Source: Candidatus Terraquivivens yellowstonensis (GTDB taxonomy: Archaea > Thermoproteota > Nitrososphaeria_A > Caldarchaeales > Wolframiiraptoraceae). From it: DNA of 32,049 bases. The position numbers were made by a program, and so were the translations under genes. The DNA lies in contig JAKCEW010000001.1 of NCBI GenBank assembly GCA_023539445.1, positions 1 to 32,049 of the forward strand, read 5' to 3'. Positions 3,558 to 28,985 of this stretch are shown here, piece by piece; the first letter of the stretch is position 1; every line of letters starts with the position of its first letter. The notes under the pieces were generated by a model, which was given only the letters and a program-made list of their open reading frames with translations, was not told the origin of the DNA and did not search any database.

Positions 3558-3601
3558 GAGCCGACCGAGCGGCCTCCCCGAACGTCTGCCGGCTAATCTA
3601 A

Positions 3602-3608
3602 TTTATAA
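3602..3608 (+). promoter_or_regulatory. TATA box for the rightward tail block
   Basis: TTTATAA is centred 25 bases before the ATG at 3630, the normal distance to an archaeal transcription start. No Shine-Dalgarno sequence precedes the ATG, so the first tail gene is probably translated from a leaderless message. It lies in the 105-base divergent region 3525-3629. Confidence 0.5.
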
Positions 3609-3629
3609 CCCGTGAATGCAACATGACGG

Positions 3630-4740: not shown

Positions 4741-4741
4741 T

Positions 4742-5629: not shown

Positions 5630-5631
5630 GC

Positions 5632-5928
5632 TTGAAGGTCAAGTTAGATGATAAAGAATACGAAATAAGGCTGACAGTGAAAGCATGGCCACTTCTCGTG
5701 TTCATAGATGACAGAAGACTTAACGCACCGAAAAGTGCTGAAGAGGCTATCAAGAGGGGGGAAGAACTGGACCAAGCGTTGGAAAAGCTCATGGAGATGT
5801 GCGTCGCACCAAAACCACCAAAGGAGTTATGGGGTAAACTACTCGGCATAATCAACATCGAAGAAAATAGGCAACTCAAGGAAGCAATAGAACTCTACGA
5901 AAAATTTCGTGGAGAGCACCGAGGGTGA
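5632..5928 (+). CDS. Tail assembly chaperone, first part (gpG-like)
   Basis: The 98-aa protein starts with a short beta segment (VKLDDKEYEIRLTVKAWPLL) and continues as charged helix. Its position directly after the tail tube and before the tape measure is the standard place of the first tail chaperone, which coats the tape measure during assembly. It begins with TTG at 5632, two bases after the tail-tube stop, with GAGGGG about ten bases upstream. The second chaperone-like frame follows in another frame; an A5 run near the end (5900-5904) could permit slippage. No long sequence signature exists for this family, so the call is positional plus general profile. Confidence 0.65.
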   Translation: MKVKLDDKEYEIRLTVKAWPLLVFIDDRRLNAPKSAEEAIKRGEELDQALEKLMEMCVAPKPPKELWGKLLGIINIEENRQLKEAIELYEKFRGEHRG

Positions 5929-5929
5929 A

Positions 5930-6082
5930 ATGTTGATTCTGAATGTAGCGTCGCTTGCTTTTGAACTTGGAATAAGGCCAAGCGACTTGCTCTCTAGTAG
6001 CCTATCAGATTTTGTATTGGACATGAAGATTGCTGAATTGTACAAGCGGAAGGTTGAGAACATTATGAGGGAAAGGACATGA
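5930..6082 (+). CDS. Tail assembly chaperone, second part (gpT-like)
   Basis: This 50-aa frame, 'MLILNVASLAFELGIRPSDL' then a helical tail, has the look of the short downstream part of tail chaperones: a hydrophobic helix, 'G(I)xPS', then a helix-rich end. In many tailed viruses this part is made only as a frameshift extension of the first chaperone. Here it also has its own ATG at 5930 with GAGGGTGA just upstream, one base after the previous stop. The frame is open upstream to 5891, so a fusion product is possible. Its stop overlaps the next start by ATGA. Confidence 0.6.
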   Translation: MLILNVASLAFELGIRPSDLLSSSLSDFVLDMKIAELYKRKVENIMRERT

Positions 6083-6537
6083 TTCAGATTGAGGATCGCG
6101 GCTTCAAGAAAGTTTTTGAATTGTTAAGCGAGGATAAGATGTCTGAGGTACTGAGCGAGTTAATCAGAACCTCTACTCAGAATGTCAAGGATTTTGTGAA
6201 AGACGTCATACCAGTTAAGACAGGAAGGTTGAGGGACTCTGTAAGGAGCGAGGTATTATCGACACATGATTGTCAGGTGATTGTGGGGAATGCCAACGCA
6301 CATTATGCATTCTTCGTTTTTCATGGAACAAGACCGCATGTCATAGAGCCAAACAACGCGAAAGCGCTAAGGTTCGAGGTAAACGGCCATATAATCTTCG
6401 CAAGAAAAGTATTCCATCCAGGAACTGAGCCCATACCGCTATGGATGTATTTGGTAGAATCGATGCACGTTACCCTACCTAAGTTTGCACAAGAGGTACT
6501 TGACAGAACGTTGAGTGTATCACAAAAAGGTGAGTAA
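6079..6537 (+). CDS. HK97 gp10-like tail/neck completion protein
   Basis: The 152-aa protein contains 'PVKTGRLRDSVRSEV' (residues 45-59), then 'HYAFFVFHGTRPHVIEPN' and 'RKVFHPGTEP'. This succession (P-x-x-T-G-x-L-R-x-S, Y-x-x-F-V-x-x-G-T, then H-P-G-T) is characteristic of HK97-gp10-like proteins, small virion proteins at the head-tail joint. Usually the gene lies before the tail tube; here it lies after the chaperones. It overlaps the previous gene by ATGA. The call is fairly secure from motifs. Confidence 0.78.
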   Translation: MIQIEDRGFKKVFELLSEDKMSEVLSELIRTSTQNVKDFVKDVIPVKTGRLRDSVRSEVLSTHDCQVIVGNANAHYAFFVFHGTRPHVIEPNNAKALRFEVNGHIIFARKVFHPGTEPIPLWMYLVESMHVTLPKFAQEVLDRTLSVSQKGE

Positions 6538-6616
6538 AACGTGCTTAACTTAAGTGTCAGAGCACATCCAGGTTTAGGAAAACTTAATTGGAACCTGTAT
6601 CAATCCAATAAAAAGC

Positions 6617-6781
6617 ATGAACGTACGCATAGCCTATGTTCTAGGACTATTAATCGTTGGGCTCATTTTCTTGCTTTGTGCCATAATTTACGAGCTTTTC
6701 TTGGTGGGCGTTATAGGCTTCATCTTCATATTTTCAGCCATCTTAATCTGGAGTTTAACGAAAAGGCACTATGCTGTGTGA
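6617..6781 (+). CDS. 54-aa membrane protein, two TM helices
   Basis: The frame encodes 54 residues that are almost wholly hydrophobic: about residues 5-25 and 28-47, joined by a short turn with Y-E, and ending in 'LTKRHYAV'. The positive-inside tail and regular hairpin indicate a real membrane protein rather than chance. It fills the space between the gp10-like and tape-measure genes, and a different frame across the same DNA lacks any such pattern. No clear ribosome-binding site precedes the ATG. A holin or small membrane regulator is possible; I recognise no family. Confidence 0.6.
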   Translation: MNVRIAYVLGLLIVGLIFLLCAIIYELFLVGVIGFIFIFSAILIWSLTKRHYAV

Positions 6782-6848
6782 ATATTGAGAGCCTAACTTT
6801 CGATTTCTACACTATGGCTTTCAGGGCGGGTGCTGTATTAGGTTGAGT

Positions 6849-8543
6849 ATGGAGTATGAAATTTCCATCAGACTAAAGGGCATAGACGATGCCACACCTA
6901 CATTCAAAGATGTGACCTCCGCGATAATCGAGATGCGGAAGGGTAATGATGTTGCTAGACAGTCATTTAATGAGCTCTACAAAGAAGTCCGTGAGCAGCA
7001 AAAGATCATCCGTGTTCTGAAAGAGGAGGCAAGCGGTGCTGGTCTGACCTTTGAAGTTTTCAAAGATACGCTCAACAAATTCGGCAATGTCATGAGTGGG
7101 GTTAATAGCATCATGACGCGATGGAATCTCTTGCAAACACGACTGAACACTGCCCAAATAGCTCTCAATCAAGCACAAAGGGATTACAACGAAGCTGTTG
7201 AAAGGTTTGGACCAAATAGCGAGCAGGCAAGAAAAGCACTCGAAAGGTTGCATGAAGCACAAAAAAAGATGAACCAAACACAAATCGAGACCATCTTTCA
7301 AATGACCGCACTCGGCATAAATGCTATAACCCTAGTGCCAAAATTCATGGAACTGTATAAATCGCTTAGTGCCCTCATAGCCGTCAAGAAAATCGCAGCG
7401 GCAACATCGGCACAACTTGCTGCTGCTCAGACTGCATCAGCGGCAGCAGGTGCTGCTTCAGTACCCGGCCATCTTGCAGCTGCCGGAGGGATAACTGCAG
7501 TAGGTACAGCCGCAGCCGCGGCGTCGAAGCCTCTTGCAATTTTCAAAGCTCTTCTTGGTCCTCCGGGCTGGGCTTTGTTAGCAGGTGCGGCCGTGGCTGT
7601 GACGGCATTCTTCGCTACAGTAGGTTCTCAATCAGTTGCCGCGGAAAGAAGTTTAACATCATTCCAAAGCACAACAACTGGGACTTTCACAGCAGTTGCA
7701 TCAGAGGCTGAGATTATGGCCAGCTCGGTCTCCACATCTTTCGAGAAGATGGGACAGACACTAAAAATTTCGGGTCAGGAGTTTGCAAGCTATGCCGACT
7801 ACATTTCTGATATTACCTACAAAGCCCTGAAGAGAATCGAAGAAATCAATGCACAAATGCAATACGAGTACGAGAGGAGCATTCCTTGGTATGCGGGCAG
7901 ATACGGCGCGGAGGCGCAACTCATGCGTGAGGGACGTTGGAATGAGTTGGCGAGTATGCAAAGGGCGGGTAGCACTGGCGGATGGGGTTTCAACGTTGAG
8001 GAGCTCAGGCGTTACGGCACACCCATACCGATTGAGTGGTATTCGTCGCTCGCATCGCTCAGGCAATACTTCTACGGAAAGACGGAGATCACCTATGAGG
8101 AGATGCTCAAATCAAGCCCCGGCGCGCTCCAAGCGCAAATCGATTACATCAAATACTTTATCAGGACTCAAGAGAAGACTTTAGCCGCGAAGTATATTCC
8201 AGCATATCGCGAAGAGCTGGAAAAGCTAGAGCGGGCGTTGAGCGAGGTCACCAGAAGGCTTGAGGAGGAGCAGAGGAGGCGCGAGGCGGAGAGACAATAC
8301 AAGCGCCAGCTTGAGGAGTGGGTTGAGAGGAAAGAGTGGATGCGCGTGTTGGGCATACTGCCTGCCGTAGCATTACCAACAACACCAAAGGATTGGATTG
8401 AGCTTGCCAAAAAATACTCGGGCATCCAGCCTCCCAGCACGACTATAGTGATAAACAACCTCGAGGTGAAGGCCGATGACCCAAAGAAATTCCTCGATAA
8501 GCTGACGGAAATCGCGTCTTTGCGGGGTGAGGCTCCTGCATGA
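6849..8543 (+). CDS. Tail tape measure protein
   Basis: The protein (564 aa from ATG 6849; TTG 6843 is an alternative) sets tail length and is threaded through the tube. It starts with a beta strand typical of tape measures (MEYEISIRLKGIDDATPTF). Long amphipathic helix follows (about 30-150), then an Ala-rich hydrophobic segment with probable membrane helices (175-262, including 'GPPGWALLAGAAVAVTAFFA'). The C-terminal part is charged coiled coil (about 430-490). It is the longest helical protein of the block and follows the chaperones. Its moderate length predicts a fairly short siphovirus-like tail, roughly 80-90 nm if 0.15 nm per residue applies. Confidence 0.85.
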   Translation: MEYEISIRLKGIDDATPTFKDVTSAIIEMRKGNDVARQSFNELYKEVREQQKIIRVLKEEASGAGLTFEVFKDTLNKFGNVMSGVNSIMTRWNLLQTRLNTAQIALNQAQRDYNEAVERFGPNSEQARKALERLHEAQKKMNQTQIETIFQMTALGINAITLVPKFMELYKSLSALIAVKKIAAATSAQLAAAQTASAAAGAASVPGHLAAAGGITAVGTAAAAASKPLAIFKALLGPPGWALLAGAAVAVTAFFATVGSQSVAAERSLTSFQSTTTGTFTAVASEAEIMASSVSTSFEKMGQTLKISGQEFASYADYISDITYKALKRIEEINAQMQYEYERSIPWYAGRYGAEAQLMREGRWNELASMQRAGSTGGWGFNVEELRRYGTPIPIEWYSSLASLRQYFYGKTEITYEEMLKSSPGALQAQIDYIKYFIRTQEKTLAAKYIPAYREELEKLERALSEVTRRLEEEQRRREAERQYKRQLEEWVERKEWMRVLGILPAVALPTTPKDWIELAKKYSGIQPPSTTIVINNLEVKADDPKKFLDKLTEIASLRGEAPA

Positions 8544-10840
8544 GCTTCCCCTCGCTCTTGCTGAGGATTAAAAAAGCGGATGGATCGTGGCAAGATGTTT
8601 CTTTTGGTATCGCAAATACCGAGCTTCAGTTGAAATGGGGGAGGGAGGCGGAAGAGCTGAGTTTCTCACTGAGTGCCGAGGGTAATGAAGCAATCATACC
8701 GCTTTTTCAGACGGGCAGGGATGTGGAGCTTTACATCAATAACGTTCTGAAATTCGCTGGTTTTATAATCGAATACAGGCCGAGCGTCGAGCTAAATGCT
8801 CGGAAGATAGCCTGCAAGGCCGTAAGCTATCTCATGCTGCTGGACAGGGTCGAGGTGAACGAACAGTATGCGCCGACCGAAGTATCCCAAATTATCAAGG
8901 GTATTGCCGAGAGCGCGGGGCTTTTAACCTCGGGCATCGAGCCGACGGGCCTTATCCTTTCGCCGAATTTCAGACACCAGAGTGGCCTAAAAGCGTGCTT
9001 GGAATTGGCGGAGAAGGCTGGATGCATCATCAGAACAACACCTGAAAAGGTTTTGTTGTTCAAGCCCCGGGGATTCGGCAATAATATTATAACAAATCCG
9101 TCATTCGAAGTCGATGCCGGCTGGACGTTAAAGCAGTATGTCGGCTCTCCCTCGGTCGCTTATGATACTTACGATGCTCGTTCAGGTAACAGTTGCATAA
9201 AGATTGATTGTATTAATGCGGGAGACGTTGGTGGAGTTGAGCAAGTAATAAACGTCGAAGCGGGAAAGCGCTACAGGTTCTCGGTATGGATGAAAGGGAC
9301 GAATACGGGCAGGCTTTCGGTCACATGGCTTGCCTCAGACGGCTCCGAGATTTCTACGGATTTGCAAGATTTGGCGCTAACGTCAGAATACAGAGAAATA
9401 GTTGTTAATGCCGTCGCACCACCGAGTGCGGCTCAGGCAAGGGTTTCCGCCATATGTTTAGGCCAAGGCGTCGGGCGGATCGATGACATGTATGCCGTGA
9501 AGGTTCATGAGTTGCTCGACACGAAAAACATAATCAAAGCATCAAAGAGCGAGAAGGATTACCTCAGACGTAATAAAATCATAGTTGTTGGCGGGTGGGA
9601 CGAGAACGGCCAAAGGATTGAGGCGGTGGCGCAGGAGGGCGCGGGCGACAGACCCCTGACAATCTACGATTTGACGATAACGAGCGCCCAGGATGCCGAG
9701 AGAATCGCGAGGCAGAAGCTTGAGCAGCTAAAGGTCACGCCCGTTATGCTTGATATCTTGGCCGATGGTGATGCGGGATTCGAGGCTGGCGATTACGCGT
9801 ATGTAGAAATCGGATGGCTCGGCATCGACGGTTATTACCTTATTGAAAGCGTTGAGCATGATTTTTCGGGTAGGATTTTTCTGAGCAGACTTTCGCTCGT
9901 GAACCCTGAGTATGTTCACAAGGATTATCTCGAGAGTCTGGCCGATACGCTGAGCAAAACCAAGCGAATCGAGCTGCCCACACCATCAGCCGAAAAGGAA
10001 AAAACGCCCGCATCAACGACGGTTTACAGACTCATAAATTACCCGCCCCTTGAGTTGGAGAATGCGCAAAACATTATGCTGGACTCGAACGGCTATGCAA
10101 CGCTATCCTCTGGTGCCACATTCGGCAGTTTCGAGATATTGTGCACGCCTGTCGCCATACTGTTCAGGCGATGGCTCAGGGTAGGAGCCGATTTTGATGA
10201 GCGAGAGGGCGATGTGATCGTGAAACTAAAACGCATTTCGGATGGTTATACCGAGACCATCATGATAGATCCTCCGGGCACTTATGAAATACCGTATCTG
10301 CCCGATGCTCGTGGATTGTGGACGGAGGACAGCTCGGAATGGGATGCTGAGGGTGCCAATTTGAGTGATTTTGATACTAGACTTTTCGGCAATAAGAGTG
10401 TCAAAGCCGTCGCGTCATCCTCGCCTTTCCGTGTGATATACCCAAAAACAAGGGATGCGAGCTGGGATCTAAGCGGTTTCAAGGAAATGGTGCTGTGGAT
10501 ATTAGCGAATGCTACATGTATAGCGAGCGTAAGATTGCATACCGATAGCGCCAATTATTTTATGAAAACATTTACGCTCGAGACCGCTAATGCTTGGATA
10601 CCATACACGTTCAAGCTGTCGGAGTTCACACAATCGGGCTCTCCCTCGCTCTCGAATATAAACTACTTCTCGCTCGAGTTCCAGAGTCCCGTGACATGGG
10701 TCGCTATAAATGCTGAATTCGTGTTTGTCAAGTATGGTTATGAGAAAATAGCGCTCGTTTTCGAACTTTCGCGTCCCTCGGCGGACAAACAGAGCCCTGT
10801 AGTAAAAGAGGCGAGGTTTGTATGGGTGGGTGGTGAATAA
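8540..10840 (+). CDS. Tail tip hub protein with inserted and C-terminal beta-sandwich modules
   Basis: The 766-aa protein follows the tape measure by ATGA overlap. Residues 1-180 and 324-475 look like the two halves of a gp27/Tal-type tail hub, for example 'DVELYINNVLKFAGFIIEYR' and later 'YLIESVEHDFSGRIFLSRL'. Between them, residues 181-323 form a self-contained jelly-roll resembling carbohydrate-binding modules ('NPSFEVDAGW', 'GKRYRFSVWMKG'). After a Pro/Lys linker (476-495) a second beta-sandwich spans about 590-735 ('LWTEDSSEWDAEG' to 'WVAINAEFVFVKY'). The hub should close the tail tip and the modules may touch cell-surface glycans; ligand binding is inference. Confidence 0.75.
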   Translation: MSFPSLLLRIKKADGSWQDVSFGIANTELQLKWGREAEELSFSLSAEGNEAIIPLFQTGRDVELYINNVLKFAGFIIEYRPSVELNARKIACKAVSYLMLLDRVEVNEQYAPTEVSQIIKGIAESAGLLTSGIEPTGLILSPNFRHQSGLKACLELAEKAGCIIRTTPEKVLLFKPRGFGNNIITNPSFEVDAGWTLKQYVGSPSVAYDTYDARSGNSCIKIDCINAGDVGGVEQVINVEAGKRYRFSVWMKGTNTGRLSVTWLASDGSEISTDLQDLALTSEYREIVVNAVAPPSAAQARVSAICLGQGVGRIDDMYAVKVHELLDTKNIIKASKSEKDYLRRNKIIVVGGWDENGQRIEAVAQEGAGDRPLTIYDLTITSAQDAERIARQKLEQLKVTPVMLDILADGDAGFEAGDYAYVEIGWLGIDGYYLIESVEHDFSGRIFLSRLSLVNPEYVHKDYLESLADTLSKTKRIELPTPSAEKEKTPASTTVYRLINYPPLELENAQNIMLDSNGYATLSSGATFGSFEILCTPVAILFRRWLRVGADFDEREGDVIVKLKRISDGYTETIMIDPPGTYEIPYLPDARGLWTEDSSEWDAEGANLSDFDTRLFGNKSVKAVASSSPFRVIYPKTRDASWDLSGFKEMVLWILANATCIASVRLHTDSANYFMKTFTLETANAWIPYTFKLSEFTQSGSPSLSNINYFSLEFQSPVTWVAINAEFVFVKYGYEKIALVFELSRPSADKQSPVVKEARFVWVGGE

Positions 10841-13306
10841 GTGCCTCAGGAAATAAAGTATTCGAAATTGGAAGGTGAAATGGCGACCTACGTCCTCGGC
10901 AATACTATTCCCGCCGAGGATGAGCAAAAAGTCAGCACATTAAGGCAATCATTTTCGCAATCAATAAGTGAGGGGACGGTTATCCAGCAGGCCTCGACGG
11001 GTTCGACCTTCGACGTTTACGGGAGCAGATGGGTCGCACAACCAATAATTAATGCCACCTCGAACGTTCTCAAGATAACCAAGGTTGCGTGGTATGGGGT
11101 AAAGGGTGGGACACCACCAGGAGATTTAAGAGCCGAGATCCGCAAAATAAACCCATCGTTAAACGAAATCGCAATCTATACGCTAGGCACGGACACGCGG
11201 CTGGCGCAGTATGAGCCTATTGGCGGAGATTATATGGTGGCGCAGGCGTTCTATGTCCCCGTAAGCACGCGCCTAACAAAGGTTACATTCACAATCTGGA
11301 AACCGACGCAGAATGCGAAGTTGGCGCTCAAAAAGAGGAAGTTGCTCTGGAGGTTTGATAACCTGTTTGATTTAACGTGGACTGTACCGTCGGCCAGCGA
11401 TAACATACCGGCCACCTCTGGAACTTATTGGCCGAGAGAGGTGCTGAATATTTCCGATGCCGTTTTTGAGGTAGAGTTGAGCGCAATATACAACTATTCG
11501 GGAACGTATATAATATTTGGTACGAGGGCGAGCGATACAAATAATGCATACGGTTTTTATGCAGGATATTCCTCTACGGCAAAGTTTTATAAAAAAATTG
11601 GTGGTGCGGAAACGGTATTAATAAGCTACCCCACTCTCTCAGGTAACGCGGTTTATCTTACACGAATCAGGCAGGTCGGTAGCCTTCATCAAGTATATTT
11701 TGCGCACACAAATGACGTTAGGGAGGTTACAGATTCAGCGCGCTCATCTGGCTCGGTATTTGTAACAATAGGTGTTAATGCCGCATACCCTAAGGCGGAT
11801 AACATTCGAATATATGAGTCCGATGCAAATTACATTATCATTTACGGGCTATCGCCCGACAACTATGTGGAGCTCCTCGATAATACCAACGCGGTCATAG
11901 CGACAGCTACGGCCGATAGTCAGGGCATCGCAAAGATATACGTATTCAACTTACCGAAAAACACACCATTCCGCGGCATGAAAGTATATACCGATTCCTC
12001 AAAGAGGACGACGCTATACTCAACAGGCTCATCCGAAGTAATATACGACAACATCTTTTCAGGGGACGAATTCGAATACCAAAGCTCGCCGAGCTACACT
12101 ATTCAGGACTTGGAGGTTTTGCTTGTCGAATGTAATGATGATAGAAGTCCGAATTTAAATAAAGTTATAACTACGCGAACAGTATCGGCATCGAGTATAG
12201 GAACATCGCCGGCAACCGTAACTATCAGTTTCTCTCCAGATTATCCGGCCTTAACAGGCGGCAAGTATTATGCAATCGTCCTGAGGCAGAAAGGTGGCGG
12301 CACGACCTTTACGCCCTATGCCGTTAGACTCAGGGAAACGCACCGTCAAAGAGAGCCGACGTATTACCCGTTTTTCCGCTCTGTTGATGGAGGGTCGACG
12401 TGGAAGCGACAGGGCGGCATATTTTGTATTGAAGGGAGCATATACATGATGGCATTAGCGCCGAGCCTTTACCCCGATGCTGTCCTTGCCTCGGCATCAT
12501 GGACGGCTTCAGAAATTGGCACATCAGCCGCTTGGTATGAAAAAGCCCTTGATACGCCCGTGTATCTCGCGCCGGGGGATGCTGTAGTACTATTAATTTA
12601 TCAGTCTGGAGGCCTAGGCAGTAGCAGCAACTATTACAGGGTTAATTATGCCACATGGACGGATAATAACACGAGCGCAAACGACCTATACGGTCCGCTT
12701 AACAAAGATTATTGGAAATGCTATCTTTTCGCATTCTTGTCGAGCACGGATGGAGGTGTTACATGGAGCGCAACAACCAACGGAGACCTGAGCTTCCAGA
12801 TAAAGGGCTATACGGCCGTGCCTCTATTCTCAACAAATCTCGTCCTTGACGAAAAAATCAAGCGCGTTAGAACGACGGTAACTGCTAGGGTTCTCAGCGG
12901 CAACACGATATATTTCCTCACGAAGGTTGGCGGTTCTCAGGTAAAGGAATCATCAACGACTGCCATGTTTTTAACGGACGTCATTGCATTCCCAGAAAGC
13001 GAGGCAATACCCGATACGGGTACTGTTACGCTAACGATTTATGTCATGGGGACGGGAGAGGTATGGGAAATCAGGACGCAACGTTTTGTCTGCAATGAGA
13101 AAAAGACAATAACGCCGAAAGACTTGGGCTTTGCGGAGCTATATCTTCTCAAGGCAGAGATCCCGACGGGCGGAAGCATCAGAATCAACGAAAAAACCGA
13201 ACTGGGAGGGGGGACGCATTCGTTCTCGGAGTTCAATTATCCCGTTAAGAAGGTGGAAATAATCAACACAAATACGGCAACCCTGCACTTTTTAGGGGTG
13301 AAGTGA
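10841..13306 (+). CDS. Receptor-binding / tail fibre protein with lectin-like domain
   Basis: The 821-aa protein starts at GTG 10841, directly after the hub stop. It is almost entirely strand-forming and rich in Ser, Thr, Tyr and Asn, as tail fibres are. About residues 170-330 read like a concanavalin-type lectin ('FEVELSAIYNYSGTYIIFG', 'RIRQVGSLHQVYFA'). Two later segments repeat one scheme: a 'SxxxIGTSxA' strand, then 'G-x-x-YYAIVL' or 'PGDAVVLLIYQSGG', then 'S(V/T)DGGSTW' or 'STDGGVTW' (about 450-535 and 550-650). These look like tandem beta-sandwich modules. Host-surface recognition is the likely role, from position and composition. Confidence 0.65.
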   Translation: MPQEIKYSKLEGEMATYVLGNTIPAEDEQKVSTLRQSFSQSISEGTVIQQASTGSTFDVYGSRWVAQPIINATSNVLKITKVAWYGVKGGTPPGDLRAEIRKINPSLNEIAIYTLGTDTRLAQYEPIGGDYMVAQAFYVPVSTRLTKVTFTIWKPTQNAKLALKKRKLLWRFDNLFDLTWTVPSASDNIPATSGTYWPREVLNISDAVFEVELSAIYNYSGTYIIFGTRASDTNNAYGFYAGYSSTAKFYKKIGGAETVLISYPTLSGNAVYLTRIRQVGSLHQVYFAHTNDVREVTDSARSSGSVFVTIGVNAAYPKADNIRIYESDANYIIIYGLSPDNYVELLDNTNAVIATATADSQGIAKIYVFNLPKNTPFRGMKVYTDSSKRTTLYSTGSSEVIYDNIFSGDEFEYQSSPSYTIQDLEVLLVECNDDRSPNLNKVITTRTVSASSIGTSPATVTISFSPDYPALTGGKYYAIVLRQKGGGTTFTPYAVRLRETHRQREPTYYPFFRSVDGGSTWKRQGGIFCIEGSIYMMALAPSLYPDAVLASASWTASEIGTSAAWYEKALDTPVYLAPGDAVVLLIYQSGGLGSSSNYYRVNYATWTDNNTSANDLYGPLNKDYWKCYLFAFLSSTDGGVTWSATTNGDLSFQIKGYTAVPLFSTNLVLDEKIKRVRTTVTARVLSGNTIYFLTKVGGSQVKESSTTAMFLTDVIAFPESEAIPDTGTVTLTIYVMGTGEVWEIRTQRFVCNEKKTITPKDLGFAELYLLKAEIPTGGSIRINEKTELGGGTHSFSEFNYPVKKVEIINTNTATLHFLGVK

Positions 13307-13678
13307 ATGAGGAAAAGGATCACGATTTTAGAGTTTAGTGAAGAACAATTAATCGATGCCGGCTTTGATATCGAGGCGTTATACCGCAACCTCGGCTTAT
13401 CACGCAGCAGCTCAATAACCCTGCATGCTGACGGCAGGTTAATCTTGAGCATAAGTGAAGATGACCTCTCAAAGGTTGATGCGGTAAAGGGCATGCTGGG
13501 CCAGCCAAAAAGCGAGAAGACCGTCGTGATCCGAAAACCAGAACCCCCGCCTCCGCAACCGTCGACCGAAATAACAGCAACATCCTCGGAAATTGAGTGT
13601 CCGTTTTGCCGTGCAAAGCTCAGGCTGAAAATGGAGAAGGCGGTACAAGATGGTATTGCTGAGAGTTCGCTCACCTGA
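13307..13678 (+). CDS. Small viral protein with C-terminal CxxC knuckle
   Basis: The 123-aa protein has a compact alpha/beta N-terminal part ('ITILEFSEEQLIDAGFDIEA'), a proline-rich linker (about 77-88, 'PEPPPPQPST') and a single zinc-knuckle-like half, 'IECPFCRAKLRLKM' (C98, C101). One CxxC alone would need a second pair from another subunit to hold zinc. The ATG follows the fibre-protein stop directly. The gene overlaps the ABC-ATPase gene by 29 bases, so the two are probably co-translated. I do not recognise the family. Confidence 0.6.
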   Translation: MRKRITILEFSEEQLIDAGFDIEALYRNLGLSRSSSITLHADGRLILSISEDDLSKVDAVKGMLGQPKSEKTVVIRKPEPPPPQPSTEITATSSEIECPFCRAKLRLKMEKAVQDGIAESSLT

Positions 13679-15125
13679 GATTAAGCCACTAATAAGTTTA
13701 AAAATCGATAAGAGCTTCAAGACCGTCTCTAAGGTAACGAAAAGGACGGTTCAGGTGGGCGAGGCATTCGGTATAGGTGTGGATGAGGAGAAGGTATTCC
13801 CTGTTTTCAAGGACTTCATGGTCGAGATTAACCCGGGCGATATCGTTTACGTAACAGGCGAGAGCGGCGGAGGGAAGAGCGTCCTCCTGAATGAGCTCGC
13901 CAAGCTGCTCTCGAAGTATAGCGAGTTCAGGCCAATAGTGACGGATAAAACCATGCAGATAGACCCGAACGAGATATTGATACATGGTGTGGGGAAGGAT
14001 ACGGCTGAAGCTATAGAGATTTTAAGCTTCGTAGGTCTCGGCGAGGCTTTTCTTTTCCTCAGGCGTTACAAAGAACTGAGCGACGGGCAAAAATATCGAT
14101 ACCGGTTGGCGAAGGCATTTTGGACGGGTGCGAGAACGCTCATTTTTGACGAATTTTGTGCGACATTGGACAGAACGACGGCGAAAGTTGTTGCATATCT
14201 CGCCCAGAAATTCTGCAGGAAGAGAGGAATTACGCTAATAGTCGCAACAACACATATAGACCTGCTCGAGGATTTGAACCCGAATGTTTACATCAATAAG
14301 AAATTCGGGACGGATGTCGATGTCAAATACTTCAAACCGGAGCCTAGGCCGTGTAGCGTCCTTAGGGATTTGAAGATATCAAGGGGGACATACGAAGATT
14401 ACAAGAAGCTCGCGCTGTTTCATTATAAGGGCTCTCATCCTGTAGGAATTACGGACATTTTCAAGGCGGAAATTGGGAATGAGGTCGTGGGCATCATAGT
14501 GTATGTTCTCACGTATCTCAATTTGAGGCCAAGGCACGTGGCGCTACCGCACCTCCTTGAAATATGTCGGAAAGAGGGGTACAAGGCATTGGCAGAATAC
14601 ATTAACAAAAACTTCAGGAGGATTGCGAGGGTGGTCGTCGCCCCGAAATACAGGGGCATAGGCTTGGGCGTCAGACTCGTGAAGGAGACCATGCCTCTGG
14701 TCGGCGTGCCTTATGTTGAGACGCTGGCCGTCATGGCCAAGTATAACCCGTTTTTCGAGCACGCAGGCATGAAAGAGGTGGAATACGAGCGGAAATATGA
14801 TGAACGGCAGCAAAAGGTCTTGGAAATCTTGGAAAGCATGGGACTTGATGTTGAACTTTCGAAGAGTAAAAAGAGAAATCTGGAATGGCTCAGGACATTG
14901 AATAAAAAGCAGGTCAAAAAGGTTGCAAATATTCTCAAGCAGCTCTTGGCTGGGAAATTCACGAGTCCGAGTATAGAGAAAAAACTGAAAGAGGAGAAAT
15001 ATACGCTAGAGGATTTGGCGGAGGCGATTACGTTGTTCAGGGCAAAGCCAAAATATTATATATGGAAAAATCCGAGCTTTGCCGAGTTTCCTGAACCCCT
15101 TGCACAAGAGGTGCTGAACGCATGA
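13650..15125 (+). CDS. ABC-type ATPase fused to GNAT acetyltransferase-like domain (COG2401-like)
   Basis: The 491-aa protein has a complete soluble ABC ATPase in its first half: Walker A GESGGGKS (70-77), signature LSDGQ (143-147), Walker B TLIFDE (163-168) and H-loop His at about 202 (ATTHID). The second half (about 244-380) looks like a GNAT fold, with the acetyl-CoA loop 'YRGIGLGVRL' (334-343) after strand 'RIARVVVAP'. The C-terminal 110 residues are helical. This combination matches the family described as ABC-type ATPase fused to a predicted acetyltransferase; its substrate is unknown. No membrane segment exists, so it is not a transporter on its own. It lies inside the viral operon with overlaps at both ends. 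Confidence 0.8.
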   Translation: MVLLRVRSPEIKPLISLKIDKSFKTVSKVTKRTVQVGEAFGIGVDEEKVFPVFKDFMVEINPGDIVYVTGESGGGKSVLLNELAKLLSKYSEFRPIVTDKTMQIDPNEILIHGVGKDTAEAIEILSFVGLGEAFLFLRRYKELSDGQKYRYRLAKAFWTGARTLIFDEFCATLDRTTAKVVAYLAQKFCRKRGITLIVATTHIDLLEDLNPNVYINKKFGTDVDVKYFKPEPRPCSVLRDLKISRGTYEDYKKLALFHYKGSHPVGITDIFKAEIGNEVVGIIVYVLTYLNLRPRHVALPHLLEICRKEGYKALAEYINKNFRRIARVVVAPKYRGIGLGVRLVKETMPLVGVPYVETLAVMAKYNPFFEHAGMKEVEYERKYDERQQKVLEILESMGLDVELSKSKKRNLEWLRTLNKKQVKKVANILKQLLAGKFTSPSIEKKLKEEKYTLEDLAEAITLFRAKPKYYIWKNPSFAEFPEPLAQEVLNA

Positions 15126-15619
15126 AGCTTGCAAAGTTGATATCAATTCTTGTTATCTTAGTTTGTTCAATATACCTCCTGGTGCTCGCTATTTCCAGCA
15201 TACCGAAATGGGAATCCACGGAGCAAACGACACTCACGCCCCAGACCGGGGCATGTTCTGGGAAGGCCCTTTGTATTGTAGGAAAGGTTACGGCGGTAAT
15301 AGACGGTGATACGCTAGAGATCAACGGCATAAGGATAAGGCTCGCACTGGTGAATACACCTGAAAAGAATGAACCAGGTTATGAGGAGGCAAAAGAATTC
15401 ACAAAGAGAGTGTGCGCCGTCGGGATCTCCGCTGTAGCGGACCAAGACGATGGCCAACCGTATGATAAATACGGCAGAGTCGTCGCAAAAGTAATTTGTG
15501 ATGGAGTGAATCTGAATGCAGCATTATTGGAAAACGGACTTGCCAAGATTCTTACTACTTACTGCTCAAAAAGCGAGTTCAAGACGGAGTGGTGGGCGAG
15601 GGCGTACGGTTGTGATTAA
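15122..15619 (+). CDS. Secreted or membrane-anchored thermonuclease (SNase-like)
   Basis: The 165-aa protein has a hydrophobic signal-anchor (residues 5-26), then a staphylococcal-nuclease domain: 'VIDGDTLEINGIRIRLALVN' (59-78), 'TPE' and 'DKYGR'. By alignment with SNase from memory, the catalytic residues are present: R73 (R35), E81 (E43) and R119 (R87). The Ca2+ ligand D40 appears as N78. Six cysteines lie outside the membrane segment (45, 51, 98, 126, 148, 164), suggesting disulfides and an extracellular location. It likely cuts nucleic acid outside the cell. The start overlaps the ABC-ATPase stop by ATGA, so it belongs to the viral operon, of which it is the last gene. Confidence 0.85.
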   Translation: MKLAKLISILVILVCSIYLLVLAISSIPKWESTEQTTLTPQTGACSGKALCIVGKVTAVIDGDTLEINGIRIRLALVNTPEKNEPGYEEAKEFTKRVCAVGISAVADQDDGQPYDKYGRVVAKVICDGVNLNAALLENGLAKILTTYCSKSEFKTEWWARAYGCD

Positions 15620-23938: not shown

Positions 23939-24634
23939 TTATCTGATTACGGGCTTCTTACAGCTTGGACATATACCGTTTAACTTTACCCAAATGTCGA
24001 TGCAACCTTTATGGAATAACGTTTGACAGTTGCTGCACATAACAGTAGTTTCTGGGTCCAGCTCTTGATAACATATACCGCAAATTGCACCGGGAGGCAC
24101 ATCTGTTGCATGCAGTAATTCAACAGCCTCTTCAACAGCCGGGACTGAAGTTTCAAGAGAAGGAGGTACTGTATGAGGTAGCACTTCAATCCTGATAGGG
24201 GTGGTTATTATAGTGACGGCAGGAACGAACATTGCTATTGCCGAAAGATAGGACATGAACATTCCTATTTCTAAATGTCCCTTTACCTGCAACGCAGGTA
24301 TTACTACAAAATGTGCATAAGCTGGCGATGCAATAGCGAGAAGGGCTCCGACAAGCGCAGTGGCTCCGACGAGCCACTTTGCTGTCATTATATTTGATGA
24401 GGTGGAGGACAGCAAAAGCGCGATTCCACAAACTATACCGCCAGCAATTGACATGAAAAGAGACTCAGTGATGATGTATCCTTGTATGGGAGTTGTGGAC
24501 ATGGTGTCTGATATTACGGTGTACCATGACATGAGTAGCGTGAGGATATGAACTGCACCAATTCCGGCCACGATTAGTGCTAGTTTAAAAAACCGCCCCA
24601 ACACCGCTTGGGATGAAACCTCCAAACCCACCAC
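23939..24634 (-). CDS. Membrane-anchored RING-type zinc-finger protein
   Basis: The 231-aa protein has four predicted membrane helices (about 17-36, 58-77, 86-112, 123-145). A roughly 35-residue linker follows, then a cytoplasmic-looking zinc finger at the C-terminus. The ligands are C185, C188, C200, C203, H208, C211, C222 and C225, that is C-x2-C-x11-C-x2-C-x4-H-x2-C-x10-C-x2-C. The ligand order and spacing match the soluble RING protein at 25917-26147 almost exactly. Eukaryotic RING proteins with membrane anchors act as ubiquitin ligases on membrane proteins; a similar role here is inference. GTG 24634 is the start, 27 bases after an AT-rich TATA-like box, and the gene leads the glyS-DUF47-endA run. 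Confidence 0.75.
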   Translation of the reverse strand: MVGLEVSSQAVLGRFFKLALIVAGIGAVHILTLLMSWYTVISDTMSTTPIQGYIITESLFMSIAGGIVCGIALLLSSTSSNIMTAKWLVGATALVGALLAIASPAYAHFVVIPALQVKGHLEIGMFMSYLSAIAMFVPAVTIITTPIRIEVLPHTVPPSLETSVPAVEEAVELLHATDVPPGAICGICYQELDPETTVMCSNCQTLFHKGCIDIWVKLNGICPSCKKPVIR

Positions 24635-24772: not shown

Positions 24773-25612
24773 ATGGGTTTTCTTGGAGGAAAGTCCAAAG
24801 AAGAGATCCTTAACGAGTTTAGAAGAGAGTTAGATGAGCTCAGGCTTCAGCTTGAGGAGAGGATAGATAATAGGATTAGTTCGCTTGAAAGAGCACTCAT
24901 TGAAGTTTCAGAAAACGTTAGAACACTTGCAAAAGAAAAAACATTTCCAGAAGAGTTCCTAGCGAGAGTAAGCGAGGCAGCAATGAGTGCAGAGAGTGTC
25001 GTTAAGGAGTTGAAAGTCATAAGAGAATACAAGGAATGGTTCGATTCCATCAAAGAAGGGCTTAACGATGTTTTAGAGTTGCTTTCACGAGAGAGGTCGA
25101 TGCTCAGGGAAGATGTGGAAAGGTTGATTAAAGAAAAAAGCGAACTTGAGGTTCTCAAAAACGAACTAAGAAAGTGGAAGGCAGATCTTGACGAGAAAGA
25201 GCACAAGCTATCAAACTTTAACGCATATGTTAAGGAGCTTGAGGATAAGAAAAACAGAATAGAGGCGGAGCTTAAGGATCTATCCCAACGTTACTTGACG
25301 TCCTTAGAAGAAATGCTACATAAGATTGATGAGGAAGTAAATAAGATAGATCGCATGTTTAAGCTAAAGGAGATAAGGCTTGAGAGGATTGCGAGAAAGG
25401 AGAGAGAATTATCGGACGCTCTTATGAGGATAAAGGAACGTGAAGAGATGATGCGCGAGCTAGAAAATAAAGTGCGAGAGATGAATGAAGAGATCTCCAA
25501 GCTAGAGGCAAAGAAAACAGAATTGTTAAATGATATAAACGAGCTTACAGAGCGCAAAGCAAATTTGGAAAAGTTGGTGGGAGAATTTAGAAAAGCTATA
25601 CTTACTCCTTAA
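24773..25612 (+). CDS. Long coiled-coil protein of unknown function
   Basis: The 279-aa protein is nearly all charged heptad repeat from residue 8 to the end, in two long runs broken around residues 58-70 and 160-175. A short glycine-rich head (MGFLGGKSK) precedes it. There is no ATPase motif, so it is not an SMC protein. It may be a structural or scaffold protein. A TATA box (CTTTTTATAC, 24734-24743) and a GTGAG five bases before the ATG support the start. It converges on the small coiled-coil gene of the ubiquitin-like cluster with a four-base overlap (25609-25612). Confidence 0.7.
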   Translation: MGFLGGKSKEEILNEFRRELDELRLQLEERIDNRISSLERALIEVSENVRTLAKEKTFPEEFLARVSEAAMSAESVVKELKVIREYKEWFDSIKEGLNDVLELLSRERSMLREDVERLIKEKSELEVLKNELRKWKADLDEKEHKLSNFNAYVKELEDKKNRIEAELKDLSQRYLTSLEEMLHKIDEEVNKIDRMFKLKEIRLERIARKERELSDALMRIKEREEMMRELENKVREMNEEISKLEAKKTELLNDINELTERKANLEKLVGEFRKAILTP

Positions 25613-25920
25613 TCTTTTCTAAGAGTTTTCTCCAAAGTTTCAATCAAACTATTGAAGGCCTCTATAAGCGAATCTATATGTGCAAGTATCTGATCTTGGC
25701 CTTTCTCTAGAGCCGCTAATCTGCTTTCCAATCTGTTTAATAAATCGGTGCTAGGCATTTTATTTTCAAGCGATTGAACCTTACTTGAGATTTCTTCAGC
25801 TTCCTCATGGACCATGGAAATTGCTTCAGCTAATTTCTTGACAGTATTGAGCGATGCCACTTTTCCAGCAGGCGTATCTACGTACTCAAGATCTATTACA
25901 AACTCTTCTTCCTCGCTCAT
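25609..25920 (-). CDS. Small coiled-coil protein in the E1-RING operon
   Basis: The 103-aa protein starts with an acidic, strand-like segment ('SEEEEFVIDLEYVDTPAG', 2-19). Two helices with heptad pattern follow (about 25-53 and 57-101). Its ATG overlaps the stop of the RING gene as ATGA (25917-25920), so it is translationally coupled to it. That placement makes a role with the RING or E1 proteins plausible, for example as an adaptor. No domain is recognised and a general coiled-coil function cannot be excluded. Confidence 0.7.
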   Translation of the reverse strand: MSEEEEFVIDLEYVDTPAGKVASLNTVKKLAEAISMVHEEAEEISSKVQSLENKMPSTDLLNRLESRLAALEKGQDQILAHIDSLIEAFNSLIETLEKTLRKD

Positions 25921-26147
25921 ACTACCATCTCCAGCACTGGCCTCTTACATATCGGACAGGCATTCCTTATACTTAACCAGCTATCAAAACACGCCTTATG
26001 ACCTACCGTTCCGCAATGAGGACATGTTGTTGTAGCAACACCCTCACTAATTTCGGAGGCACAAATCGGGCACATCCTGCTCACCGTCTTAGTTTTTGTC
26101 CAAATCCACTTGCCTACACAAGTCTCATTTCTTACCACTATTCTCAA
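25917..26147 (-). CDS. Small RING-finger protein, putative E3-like ligase
   Basis: The 76-aa protein is little more than a RING-type finger: C26, C29, C42, C45, H50, C53, C64 and C67, spaced C-x2-C-x12-C-x2-C-x4-H-x2-C-x10-C-x2-C. It corresponds in size and position to the small RING finger protein of the Caldiarchaeum ubiquitin-like cluster. RING proteins bring charged E2 and substrate together. The chosen start is TTG 26147, because GGTGAG lies about five bases upstream; this overlaps the E1 gene end by 23 bases. A start at the ATG of C26's preceding Met would leave only the finger. Confidence 0.82.
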   Translation of the reverse strand: MRIVVRNETCVGKWIWTKTKTVSRMCPICASEISEGVATTTCPHCGTVGHKACFDSWLSIRNACPICKRPVLEMVV

Positions 26148-27315
26148 TAAAGCTCACCTTTATGGGTATTGGCATGTACCGCCTACTCGTGTGGATATAC
26201 AATATGTCGTCGCTTTTAATGTTTATCTCTGACAGCTTTTGATCGTCTTTTAATATCCATTTTTTATACTGGATTTCGGGGTCCGGGATGCTAAATAAAG
26301 CACTTACCTTCTCCTTCAGATTCCATACACAGTCATCGGAATTGGCTGTTATCTCGATTGGTTCTCCTCCTTGCATAACATCACCGCAGACAAAGCAATC
26401 CTCCCTTCTTTTTAAAGGAACTTTGGTTAACCTTTGCGATGCACCATCGTATACTATAAGATGCTTTGTTACCTTTCCGATGCTCCCACCATGTATTATT
26501 TTTAGCACTTCTAAAGATGCCACACCCGATATAACTGATGCCCCTCCTTGAATCGCCGGCAACTTAGGCTTTAACAGATCCCTTAGTCTGATTATCTCTT
26601 CAGAAATTTTGCTATGCTCTTTTTGGAGCCTTTCTATCGGCGTGTATTTAAGGTCGTAAATTGTTTTTATACCCATAGAAAATAGTTCTTTAACAAGCTC
26701 GAAAGGTACCTCAATTTTGTTTTTCCTTAGGTCCTCGGCGAGGTCCTCTGGTTTACGTCTTCTGAGCGTACATTCGGCCAACTGCGTGTCCTTAGGGATT
26801 AGGGCGTCACCATGACATTCAAGACATGCCGTTTCTCCTGGTATTACAACCTGCACATTTCCGTATAGACCTTCGATTGCTGTGTCAACAAGCGGTTTCT
26901 TAAGTTCGACGGCAAGCGAGTTAAGCCACCTTCTCGTTGCCCAGTTGTCTAAGCAGGAGCAAAAAACATCCACATCTTTCAGCAAAGATTCATCAAACTT
27001 TCTTAAGTCCTCATAATAAGCATCAACCTTAACGTAGGGGTTTATCTTCTGAAGCTTCTCTTTGGCAACAATGGCTTTTGGCAAGCCTATATCAGAATCC
27101 TCAAAAAGCATTTGACGGTTAAGGTTCGAGAGTTCTACCACGTCGTTATCAACCAAGATTAGCTTGCCGATTCCTGCGAGGCAGAGGTTCTTTGCCAACT
27201 CGCAACCCGTCGCGCCCACGCCCGCTATTAAGACCGTTGAGTTCGAGACCTTCCACTGATTCCAGCCGCTGATTCTTATCTGCCTGTCATATCTTTCTAG
27301 CAGGTATGGCTCCAT
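26125..27315 (-). CDS. E1-like ubiquitin-activating enzyme
   Basis: E1 adenylates the C-terminus of the ubiquitin-like protein and captures it as a thioester. The 396-aa protein has a ThiF/UBA-type adenylation domain: nucleotide loop GVGATG (32-37), 'VDNDVVELSNLNRQ' (55-68) with the ATP-site Arg67, K80, and D123 in 'CLDNWATRR'. A candidate catalytic Cys182 sits in 'AECTLRRRKPEDL', as in UBA3-like enzymes. Structural zinc is probably held by C164/C167 and C307/C310. Residues 318-376 look like a beta-grasp ubiquitin-fold domain that would recruit E2. Thus it resembles a eukaryotic E1 half rather than MoeB. It has its own TATA box. Confidence 0.93.
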   Translation of the reverse strand: MEPYLLERYDRQIRISGWNQWKVSNSTVLIAGVGATGCELAKNLCLAGIGKLILVDNDVVELSNLNRQMLFEDSDIGLPKAIVAKEKLQKINPYVKVDAYYEDLRKFDESLLKDVDVFCSCLDNWATRRWLNSLAVELKKPLVDTAIEGLYGNVQVVIPGETACLECHGDALIPKDTQLAECTLRRRKPEDLAEDLRKNKIEVPFELVKELFSMGIKTIYDLKYTPIERLQKEHSKISEEIIRLRDLLKPKLPAIQGGASVISGVASLEVLKIIHGGSIGKVTKHLIVYDGASQRLTKVPLKRREDCFVCGDVMQGGEPIEITANSDDCVWNLKEKVSALFSIPDPEIQYKKWILKDDQKLSEINIKSDDILYIHTSRRYMPIPIKVSFIENSGKK

Positions 27316-27340
27316 TTACAGCCTGAAAGTTTATTCGAAT

Positions 27341-27350
27341 GATATAATAA
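27341..27350 (-). promoter_or_regulatory. TATA box for the E1-RING-coiled-coil unit
   Basis: The minus strand reads TTATTATATC, centred 30 bases before the E1 ATG at 27315. The ATG is preceded by CAGGCTGTAA, which is no ribosome-binding site, so a leaderless transcript is likely. It separates E1 from the Ub-E2 unit upstream. Confidence 0.55.
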
Positions 27351-27375
27351 CATTTAGGCTGAAACTTAAAAGGGA

Positions 27376-27390
27376 CATGGTAAAACCATG
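27376..27390 (-). terminator. Hairpin between the E2 and E1 genes, candidate terminator
   Basis: CATGGT and ACCATG form a six-base-pair stem with a three-base loop about 18 bases after the E2 stop. Read on the minus strand, it is followed by TCCCTTTT. It could end the Ub-E2 transcript or stabilise its 3' end. Confidence 0.4.
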
Positions 27391-27407
27391 AAAGCATGAA
27401 ATTTTGA

Positions 27408-27923
27408 CTACATTCGCCACTTTAGCTTTTTCTCAAATACCTTTTCTGGGGTTGCATAAAGCTGTATGTAGTACCTAACCCTATTGAAAAAAACGTCGGG
27501 CCTATATTTCATTTCATAAGCCGCTATCGAGTTAAGCGGGTCGTCTGGGTTTGGATTGGCTAATAGATTCTGGAGTGCCTCAACAATGTTCACGAGGTAC
27601 AACCCAGGTCTCCAGTCATCTTTAAAAATGGATTCGCATATCCTAGCAGGAACCTCGTCTGTAAAATTAGGATGCCATACCCTTGTATGCCAGATAACAT
27701 TTGGCGGCACGTATGGGTATGCCCTTGGTATTTTTATCTCTACCTTAAAGTACCCACCCTCATAATACCCAGAGCCCACTATCACACCTGTATAGTGTGT
27801 CAGGTCACCATCAACTATGTCGAATAATGGAGGGTCGCGCTCCTGCATCAATCTATACTCTACGGCCAACCTCTTATTCCATAGAGGTTCGGGTAATTCT
27901 GAGTAAGTCTCCAGAGGTGCCAC
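27408..27923 (-). CDS. E2-like ubiquitin-conjugating enzyme (UBC fold)
   Basis: The 171-aa protein has the UBC fold: N-terminal helix 'NKRLAVEYRLMQERDPP' (16-32), strands through 'YYEGGYFKVEIKIPRAYPYV', the HPN motif (84-86) and the catalytic Cys96 ten residues later ('PARICESIF'). A tryptophan and proline follow in the usual place ('DDWRPGLYL'), and two C-terminal helices close the domain. It should accept the ubiquitin-like protein from E1. The start is GTG 27923, inside the Ub gene; the N-terminal helix needs residues upstream of the next Met, so no later start works. The 50-base overlap with Ub implies coupled translation. Confidence 0.93.
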   Translation of the reverse strand: MAPLETYSELPEPLWNKRLAVEYRLMQERDPPLFDIVDGDLTHYTGVIVGSGYYEGGYFKVEIKIPRAYPYVPPNVIWHTRVWHPNFTDEVPARICESIFKDDWRPGLYLVNIVEALQNLLANPNPDDPLNSIAAYEMKYRPDVFFNRVRYYIQLYATPEKVFEKKLKWRM

Positions 27924-28155
27924 CCCCCACCGTTCTTGTTATGATGACCAGTTTGTCGCCTTCTGATATACCTAAGTCAGTAAGTGTTTCCGTTTCTTTT
28001 AAAGCTCTACCCTTGTAAGTTAAGTATGTAGTGTCTGGCGGAAGTTTCTTAATCGCACAGACCTTAGCCTTAATTGCCCCTATTGTTGCATTTGGAGAAA
28101 CTTCTAACTCTAGAGGGCTACCACCACCGACTGCAGGTATAACCTTGATTTTCAT
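27874..28155 (-). CDS. Ubiquitin-like protein precursor with C-terminal tail
   Basis: The 93-aa protein aligns by eye with eukaryotic ubiquitin across its length, notably 'TIGAIKAKVCAIKKLPPD' (24-41) against the ubiquitin helix. A glycine run G77-G79 stands where ubiquitin ends in GG. Fourteen or fifteen residues follow, so the protein must be trimmed before E1 can use it; the JAMM protease next door is the obvious candidate. At the K48 position of ubiquitin it has Arg50, while lysines corresponding to K27 and K29 are present (K29, K31). The ATG has GGGGGT about ten bases upstream and a TATA-like box at 28191-28200. Confidence 0.93.
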   Translation of the reverse strand: MKIKVIPAVGGGSPLELEVSPNATIGAIKAKVCAIKKLPPDTTYLTYKGRALKETETLTDLGISEGDKLVIITRTVGGGTSGDLLRITRTSME

Positions 28156-28190
28156 AAGTCTTTAACCCCCATTGGCATTCTATTTGTAAC

Positions 28191-28200
28191 ATATTTAAGT
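28191..28200 (-). promoter_or_regulatory. TATA-like box for the Ub-E2 unit
   Basis: The minus strand reads ACTTAAATAT, centred about 40 bases before the Ub ATG. A transcript from here would have a leader of about 15 bases holding GGGGGT, so Ub, unlike E1, is probably translated with a ribosome-binding site. Confidence 0.45.
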
Positions 28201-28317
28201 ATTAACTTTTTAAAGCAGTTAGGGGTTACGTATAGACAACGCCGGGAATTCCTATATATTTTGGGCGCATTACGTTATAGGGCATCTAACGACTCCATTA
28301 ACCATTTCAAACGTTAA

Positions 28318-28325
28318 TTAATATG
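28318..28325 (+). promoter_or_regulatory. TATA-like box for the JAMM protease gene
   Basis: TTAATATG within an AT-rich stretch is centred about 29 bases before the ATG at 28350. The start has no clear ribosome-binding site. The 194-base space 28156-28349 holds this box and the divergent Ub promoter. Confidence 0.4.
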
Positions 28326-28349
28326 GTTAAACACTAATACGCAGGTTCC

Positions 28350-28985
28350 ATGAGGGCACGCATTTATCCTCTAGCTCTTGGTAAGATACTTCATCATGCT
28401 ATTAGTAACATTAATCAAGAAGTTGCAGGGTTAATGGTGGGAAAAGTAGTATCGGACGTTGTTGAGGTCTGGGATACCGTTACTGGTCCTCAACAGAGCA
28501 CGCCTGCATACGTTAAGCTCGAAGAGAATGTTATGGCCTTGGTTGCTGAAGTTTTGATAGAAAACCTTCCAGACCTATACATAGTTGGCTGGTATCATTC
28601 ACATCCGGGTTTAGATGTCTTTATGTCACCTATAGATGTCGAGACGCAAAAAGCCTACCAAACCATGTTTCCTAAGGCCATAGCGTTAGTTGTTGATCCC
28701 CTACAATTTAGCGCCAGCTGGAAAGTCTCGGACCTAAAGATCGGCGTGTTTAGAATAGATAAAAATGGAAAGGTCGTGCCAGTAAGGTTCACGCTTGGTT
28801 TACAACGGCGTAAAGTCCTTGAAAGCACGCTGGTAGGTCTCCAAATGCTTGATTTGATTCCTAGGAAAGCCGACGTGGCTGATGAGGAGAGTGTAAAGAC
28901 TAGTACCGCCAAAATGCTTGACCTTGATCATATAGTAAAGTTTTTTAGCAAAACCAAGAAACTTTTACCAAGTAGGAAGGGATGA
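28350..28985 (+). CDS. JAMM/MPN+ metalloprotease, Rpn11-like deubiquitinase
   Basis: The 211-aa protein carries a complete JAMM zinc-protease site: E24 in 'QEVAGLMVG', then H83-x-H85-x7-S93-x2-D96 in 'WYHSHPGLDVFMSPID'. Proteins of this type in eukaryotes (Rpn11) remove ubiquitin at the proteasome. In this setting it should cut the Ub precursor after its glycines and also reverse conjugation. A C-terminal helical extension (about 150-211) lies outside the catalytic domain and ends in a basic tail. The gene runs divergently from Ub and is followed by a coiled-coil gene. Confidence 0.93.
   Translation: MRARIYPLALGKILHHAISNINQEVAGLMVGKVVSDVVEVWDTVTGPQQSTPAYVKLEENVMALVAEVLIENLPDLYIVGWYHSHPGLDVFMSPIDVETQKAYQTMFPKAIALVVDPLQFSASWKVSDLKIGVFRIDKNGKVVPVRFTLGLQRRKVLESTLVGLQMLDLIPRKADVADEESVKTSTAKMLDLDHIVKFFSKTKKLLPSRKG

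Follow-up and report, generated by a model that had tools for sequence, protein, structure and literature searches.

The ubiquitin locus of Terraquivivens

We analysed a 32,049-nucleotide stretch (henceforth the window) of contig JAKCEW010000001.1 from the heat-loving archaeon Candidatus Terraquivivens yellowstonensis, and found at positions 25917-28985 five open reading frames predicted to encode ubiquitin (Ub), an activating enzyme (E1), a conjugating enzyme (E2), a small RING protein and a JAMM protease. The Ub, E2, E1 and small RING genes lie on the minus strand, and the JAMM gene lies on the plus strand. These genes and three neighbours beyond the small RING gene are listed with their lengths in amino acids (aa) and the expect values (E) of their Pfam matches; CsUb denotes the Ub of Caldiarchaeum subterraneum.

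28350..28985, plus strand, divergent from the Ub operon: Rpn11-type JAMM protease, 211 aa (PF01398, E 2e-21)
27874..28155, minus strand: pro-ubiquitin, 93 aa (PF00240, E 9e-13; 134.9 bits to CsUb, 2mqj)
27408..27923, minus strand: E2 conjugating enzyme, 171 aa (PF00179, E 6e-28)
26125..27315, minus strand: E1 activating enzyme, 396 aa (PF00899, E 1e-62)
25917..26147, minus strand: small RING protein (srfp, predicted E3), 76 aa (PF13639, E 6e-10)
25609..25920, minus strand: 103-aa coiled-coil protein, encoded by the first gene downstream of the small RING gene, position conserved
24773..25612, plus strand: 279-aa coiled-coil protein, encoded convergently in the space separating the 103-aa and membrane RING genes, placed by synteny
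23939..24634, minus strand: membrane RING protein, 231 aa, recognised from orthologues, zinc ligands and an AlphaFold2 model

The Ub and E2 genes overlap by 50 nt, the E1 and small RING genes by 23 nt, and the small RING stop and the 103-aa gene by 4 nt, which points to a single operon. Scans for terminators and for sigma-70 promoters, a type that archaea are not expected to have, gave nothing above chance. Profile searches, including Pfam and NCBIfam, returned no informative family match for the 103-aa protein and only generic coiled-coil matches for the 279-aa protein; the former probably, and the latter possibly, belongs to the conserved unit. The original prediction, made from sequence alone, had described a complete five-gene cluster with intact active sites. 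Reading frames, Pfam matches and active-site residues bore this out for all five parts, but "complete" proved too strong, as the conserved unit also includes the membrane RING gene, which looks like part of the same system, and may include the genes for the 103-aa and 279-aa proteins as well.

The source genome (1.16 Mb, 96% complete) encodes one free-standing Ub (PF00240), a single E2 and two RING proteins, every one of them at this locus; profile searches of the rest of the genome found no further genes of these three kinds. Proteasome subunits are also encoded. The archaeal lineage that had been predicted is correct: the closest named relatives are metagenome-assembled genomes of Ca. Terraquivivens tengchongensis, ruidianensis and tikiterensis, whose E1 proteins are 87-92% identical to that of the window. 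Terraquivivens is a genus of the Wolframiiraptoraceae, order Caldarchaeales (PMC9246946). Chance can be excluded as the source of the cluster, because synteny extends across the order (see below) and Ub orthologues within the genus are 80-92% identical to the window Ub.

The cluster is of a known kind, having been reconstituted biochemically from C. subterraneum (PMC5654768, PMC6043591). That operon (Csub_C1473 for Rpn11, Csub_C1474 for Ub, and neighbours) has the same genes in the same order and orientation, with co-directional Ub, E2, E1 and small RING genes and a divergent Rpn11-type JAMM gene adjoining Ub. Its Ub, E2, E1 and JAMM are orthologous to those of the window and share their catalytic residues, and a second RING gene is adjacent in both. 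The resemblance to Caldiarchaeum, also part of the original prediction, is borne out by genome G024, which has the gene order of the window and which we take to be C. subterraneum because its Ub (87 aa, tail CGEPIRRAA) fits the published protein of 87 aa with a nine-residue tail, Cys79 and Glu81 (PMC6043591). The two operons differ in the Ub pro-peptide (15 aa from Gly79 in the window versus 9 aa from Cys79), in the Ub-E2 overlap (50 versus 35 nt), in loop 7 of E2 (WRP versus WSP) and in the membrane RING, where the window has Trp and Lys in place of Tyr and Gly. All five ubiquitin parts have also been reported in each of six Tengchong Aigarchaeota genomes of the same order; as far as the portion of that report available to us goes, it lists parts, without a membrane RING, module structure or pro-peptide pattern (PMC6053391). 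These three aspects, the last in the form of species whose Ub needs no processing, are what the present analysis adds.

We conclude that the locus is very probably a ubiquitin conjugation and deconjugation system of this Terraquivivens species and the orthologue of the operon reconstituted from C. subterraneum. The conclusion is drawn from the genes, their active-site residues, their orthology and their conservation throughout the order, all read from sequence. From it we infer the same enzymatic working as in C. subterraneum and, further below, a function for the membrane RING.

The E1 is of the ubiquitin type

As had been predicted, the E1 combines a catalytic cysteine with a C-terminal ubiquitin-fold domain, the pairing that marks a ubiquitin-type E1. 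Cys182 (AECTLRR) aligns with the catalytic cysteine of yeast Uba1 (IPLCTLR), the nucleotide site is intact, and zinc-binding cysteines form two CxxC pairs (164/167 and 307/310). The ubiquitin-like domain at residues 315-378 scored 25.1 bits in one search, just under the cut-off of 25.4, and 28.6 bits in another.

The adenylation domain on its own could be read as belonging to a sulphur-carrier system of the SAMP/ThiS/MoaD type to which an E2 had been added, since it scored 139-146 bits against the ThiF/MoeB models of NCBIfam versus 108 against Ube1, none of them at cut-off. Phylogenies that placed these proteins with such systems had been named beforehand as a result that would overturn a ubiquitin assignment. 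In an IQ-TREE analysis of 27 rows with few eukaryotes, the Caldarchaeales E1 proteins formed one clade with a Helarchaeota (Asgard) E1 and two eukaryotic (Uba1) adenylation domains, and this clade was split, with support of 100/99, from ThiF, MoeB, Uba4 and the source genome's own two ThiF/MoeB proteins. The phylogeny was built for E1; the kinship of Ub and E2 was judged by pairwise scores and by their orthology to the C. subterraneum proteins. Structure pointed the same way. The AlphaFold2 model of the E1 (predicted local distance difference test, pLDDT, 85.2) had as its best match UBA3, the catalytic subunit of the eukaryotic NEDD8 E1 (E 1e-28; template modelling (TM) score 0.70 by query), across all domains, including the catalytic-Cys and ubiquitin-fold domains that have no counterpart in ThiF; ThiF and MoeB matched with a TM score of 0.50, covering the adenylation part. 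UBA3 likewise carries adenylation, catalytic-Cys and ubiquitin-fold domains in a single chain, but the archaeal catalytic-Cys domain (about 182-250) is much smaller and no partner-subunit gene was seen. Used alone as a sequence query, the middle region of the E1 did not match UBA3. Catalytic cysteine, E2 and RING are moreover all present, and ThiF/MoeB proteins and a SAMP-type JAMM are encoded separately, elsewhere in the source genome. On the tree and the fold, and with an E2 present, we reject the sulphur-carrier reading, to which we attach next to no probability.

Within the ubiquitin-type clade, the two eukaryotic domains were nested inside Caldarchaeales at an open fork, on a branch of 2.24 changes per column. 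This nesting would favour acquisition of the operon by transfer from eukaryotes or Asgard archaea, which would make it non-native; the placement is unreliable, however, because the branch is so long. The system also occurs throughout the order with conserved synteny, and a published survey with wider sampling saw nothing to indicate that eukaryotes had been the donors (PMC4327156). We therefore regard a foreign origin as very unlikely. The cluster supports the view that a ubiquitin cascade predates eukaryotes, as already established from C. subterraneum.

E2, ubiquitin processing and the JAMM protease

The E2 has the features of the UBC fold, with HPN at residues 84-86 and, about 10 residues on, the catalytic Cys96 that had been singled out originally; UBE2K is its best solved relative. 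In the JAMM protease the zinc site (E24, H83, H85, S93, D96) is intact and follows the E...HxHx10D pattern, and the protein scores 207 bits against its orthologue CsRpn11 (6fju).

The window Ub has GlyGly at 77-78 followed by Gly79 and 14 more residues, so that residues 79-93 are predicted to form a 15-residue pro-peptide. GlyGly is found at 77-78 in all 42 Ub sequences of the order, yet 20 of them stop exactly at Gly78 without a tail. Among the 41 genomes in which both genes could be measured, every one with a Ub/E2 overlap of at least 11 nt has a tailed Ub (19/19), compared with two of the 22 lacking such an overlap (tails of 2 and 4 residues); because of their shared phylogeny these genomes do not count as independent cases, and 2 of the 19 (G003 and G004) have an uncertain E2 start codon. 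In several species of families f1, f3 and f4 the Ub stop codon TGA sits within the E2 codons for Leu-Pro-Glu. Because the tail tracks the gene overlap, the pro-peptide is most simply seen as a by-product of it.

JAMM orthologues were found in 44 of 44 genomes of the order and in none of 17 outside it. Since the protease is kept by all species, including those with processing-free Ub, its conserved job is probably deconjugation; such species separate this role from that in Ub maturation. In C. subterraneum, Cys79Gly Ub was cut faster than wild type and Glu79 blocked cleavage by CsRpn11 (PMC6043591); Gly79 is the natural residue in the window. The Ub of G005 (L047) has Asp79 immediately after GlyGly and thus offers a natural test case. 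A second JAMM, probably SAMP-type (161-aa frame), lies on the same contig about 10.5 kb beyond the cluster (G000:C5:39424-39717).

In vitro, Ub becomes attached to three lysines of C. subterraneum Ub: K4, K53 and K68. Of these published chain-forming lysines only K68 is invariant (42/42 Ub sequences); K53 is present in 32, and position 4 is Lys in 22 and Arg in 20.

Distribution and a two-module locus

The system is confined to the order and near-universal in it, as judged from E2 and JAMM in the 44 order genomes and 17 outside. E2 matches occurred in all 44 and in none of the 17, with a canonical E2 in 43; in the remaining genome, G043 (57% complete), the only match is the E2-like gene of the second system described below. 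RING domains (PF13639) number exactly two in 36 of the 44 genomes, one in six, three in G033 (one of them a fragment) and zero in G037 (81% complete); outside the order, 1 of 17 genomes has a single one.

In f1, f3 and f4 the gene order is JAMM, Ub, E2, E1, small RING, 103-aa, 279-aa (reverse) and membrane RING, kept in most of those genomes whose contigs let it be seen. In eight f2 genomes Ub-E2-E1 lie elsewhere, while the small RING, 103-aa, 279-aa and membrane RING genes are still together in the same order. Because this group stays linked when Ub-E2-E1 has moved, we read the locus from its gene arrangement as two modules, with the membrane RING tied to the small RING and not to Ub-E2-E1. 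In genus g9 the membrane RING gene is apart from the small RING, 103-aa and 279-aa genes.

Two further arrangements were seen. In three Terraquivivens genomes (G002, G003 and G004; L044, L045 and L046) inserts of 0.84-2.0 kb between E2 and E1 split the operon; they carry reverse-strand reading frames, one of 225 aa in G002 and G003 and others in G004. Four g9 genomes have a second system, built on a 272-aa protein in which a ubiquitin-like domain ending in VGG is fused directly to an E2 domain that has both HPN and Cys. We read this fusion through in G028 (L143:6232-7050) and G043 (L144, around 4230-5048), with matching hits in G040 and G041. Its gene adjoins one for a JAMM protease, and a RING-like protein and a type II/IV secretion ATPase are encoded close by. 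It seems unusual for a natural Ub-GlyGly-E2 fusion to have as its neighbour a protease able to cleave it.

Ligase determinants of the two RING proteins

Both RING proteins have C4HC3 ligands, which departs from the textbook C3H2C3 order of RING-H2 domains, although PF13639 is still their best match. The segment C-x2-C-x4-H-x2-C is common to both. The full spacing in the small RING is C-x2-C-x12-C-x2-C-x4-H-x2-C-x10-C-x2-C, and like active RING E3s it has Ile before C2, Trp after C6 and Lys after C8; the corresponding residues of the C. subterraneum small RING (I30, W58, R69) matter for activity (PMC5654768). Both window RINGs have Ile, Trp and Lys at these positions. By contrast, f2 small RINGs have Ala, Leu, Arg (n=7) or Val, Leu, Lys (n=1) and f2 membrane RINGs have Ile, Trp, Gly; in the genus of C. 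subterraneum the small RING has Ile, Trp, Arg and the membrane RING Ile, Tyr, Gly. Which of the two RINGs has lost ligase features thus depends on the lineage, and this would suggest a division of labour. Most small RINGs keep an N-terminal Gly-x-Trp (GKW, GFW, GEW, GMW) or similar, as do f2 small RINGs that lost the RING Ile and Trp.

A candidate membrane-anchored ligase

The membrane RING protein has four predicted transmembrane helices (7-33, 55-77, 81-114, 122-143), a disordered linker and a C-terminal C4HC3 RING (184-224). Its AlphaFold2 model (pLDDT 89.7, predicted TM score 0.62) shows short strands in the first and last loops. The RING would face the cytosol, given the even helix count and where E2 must be. 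Among 300 genomes of the phylum, full-length matches were restricted to the order; about 250 sampled genomes outside it gave matches to the RING part only. The membrane part had no sequence family match. The 50 Foldseek matches listed for the model were claudins, TARP-bearing chains or a calcium-channel complex chain, all weak (best E 1.3e-3, TM by target at most 0.59), and hint at a fold resemblance to claudins that is possibly convergent. Eukaryotic membrane RING ligases of the HRD1 type likewise combine a multi-pass membrane domain with a RING on a cytosolic tail, and the RING parts align, but the membrane parts have no detectable kinship, that of the archaeal protein having four helices with a small beta sheet in a weakly claudin-like fold. 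The paper of Fuchs et al. refers to a "second E3 protein" adjoining the C. subterraneum operon but nowhere uses the word membrane, and a literature search, whose coverage left out the original C. subterraneum genome paper, returned no description of this membrane domain or of archaeal membrane RING ligases.

A far-reaching reading, which we hold somewhat less likely than not, is that the protein is a working E3 that ubiquitylates cell-membrane proteins by means of a claudin-like four-helix domain. If so, membrane-anchored ubiquitin ligases exist outside eukaryotes, as the standard half of a two-ligase system across the order, and E2-binding features are kept on one or other RING, as in f2, where the small RING lost Ile and Trp and the membrane RING keeps them. 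The zinc domain might instead be structural or bind another target, with the operon linkage reflecting genomic inertia. The absence of Lys/Arg after C8 from the membrane RING of all 12 f2 genomes, both f3 genomes and some of f4 fits such a non-ligase, whereas in an alignment of 41 sequences all eight zinc ligands are invariant and Ile before C2 and Trp after C6 are kept in at least 90%. The link to the small RING, moreover, outlasts separation from Ub-E2-E1 in the eight f2 genomes, and the window's own family has all three determinants. We consider a non-ligase role rather unlikely. Presence across the order makes the membrane RING a concrete test of membrane-directed ubiquitylation in archaea, and proteomics is within reach because one member of the family, Wolframiiraptor, is in culture (PMC9246946).

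Proposed working of the system

By analogy with C. subterraneum, the JAMM protease would cut pro-Ub after Gly78, and the E1 would adenylate Ub and then take it on Cys182. Guided by the ubiquitin-fold domain of the E1, the E2 would accept Ub on Cys96, and a RING protein would stimulate its transfer to lysines, either on substrates or on Ub itself, with K68 the likeliest in chains; RING-stimulated transfer from E1 through E2 to substrate has been shown for the C. subterraneum proteins only (PMC5654768). The JAMM would also remove Ub from conjugates. The two RINGs would share the E2, one small and soluble and the other anchored in the cell membrane, bringing ubiquitylation to membrane proteins.

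Three points weigh against this reading. The E2-E3 contact may differ from that in C. subterraneum, given WRP in loop 7. The start codons of the E2 (GTG) and small RING (TTG) were picked by homology. Finally, the membrane RING may not be a strong ligase everywhere, because Gly, Asn or Gln stands in place of Lys/Arg after C8 in f2, f3 and Caldiarchaeum.

A probable provirus in the window

Positions 62-15619 of the window hold a probable head-tail provirus, with the following matches to phage families:

62-1654: terminase large subunit
4724-5629: minor tail protein
6079-6537: neck protein
6843-8543: tape measure protein
8540-10840: tail protein
13650-15125: ATP-binding protein
15122-15619: nuclease

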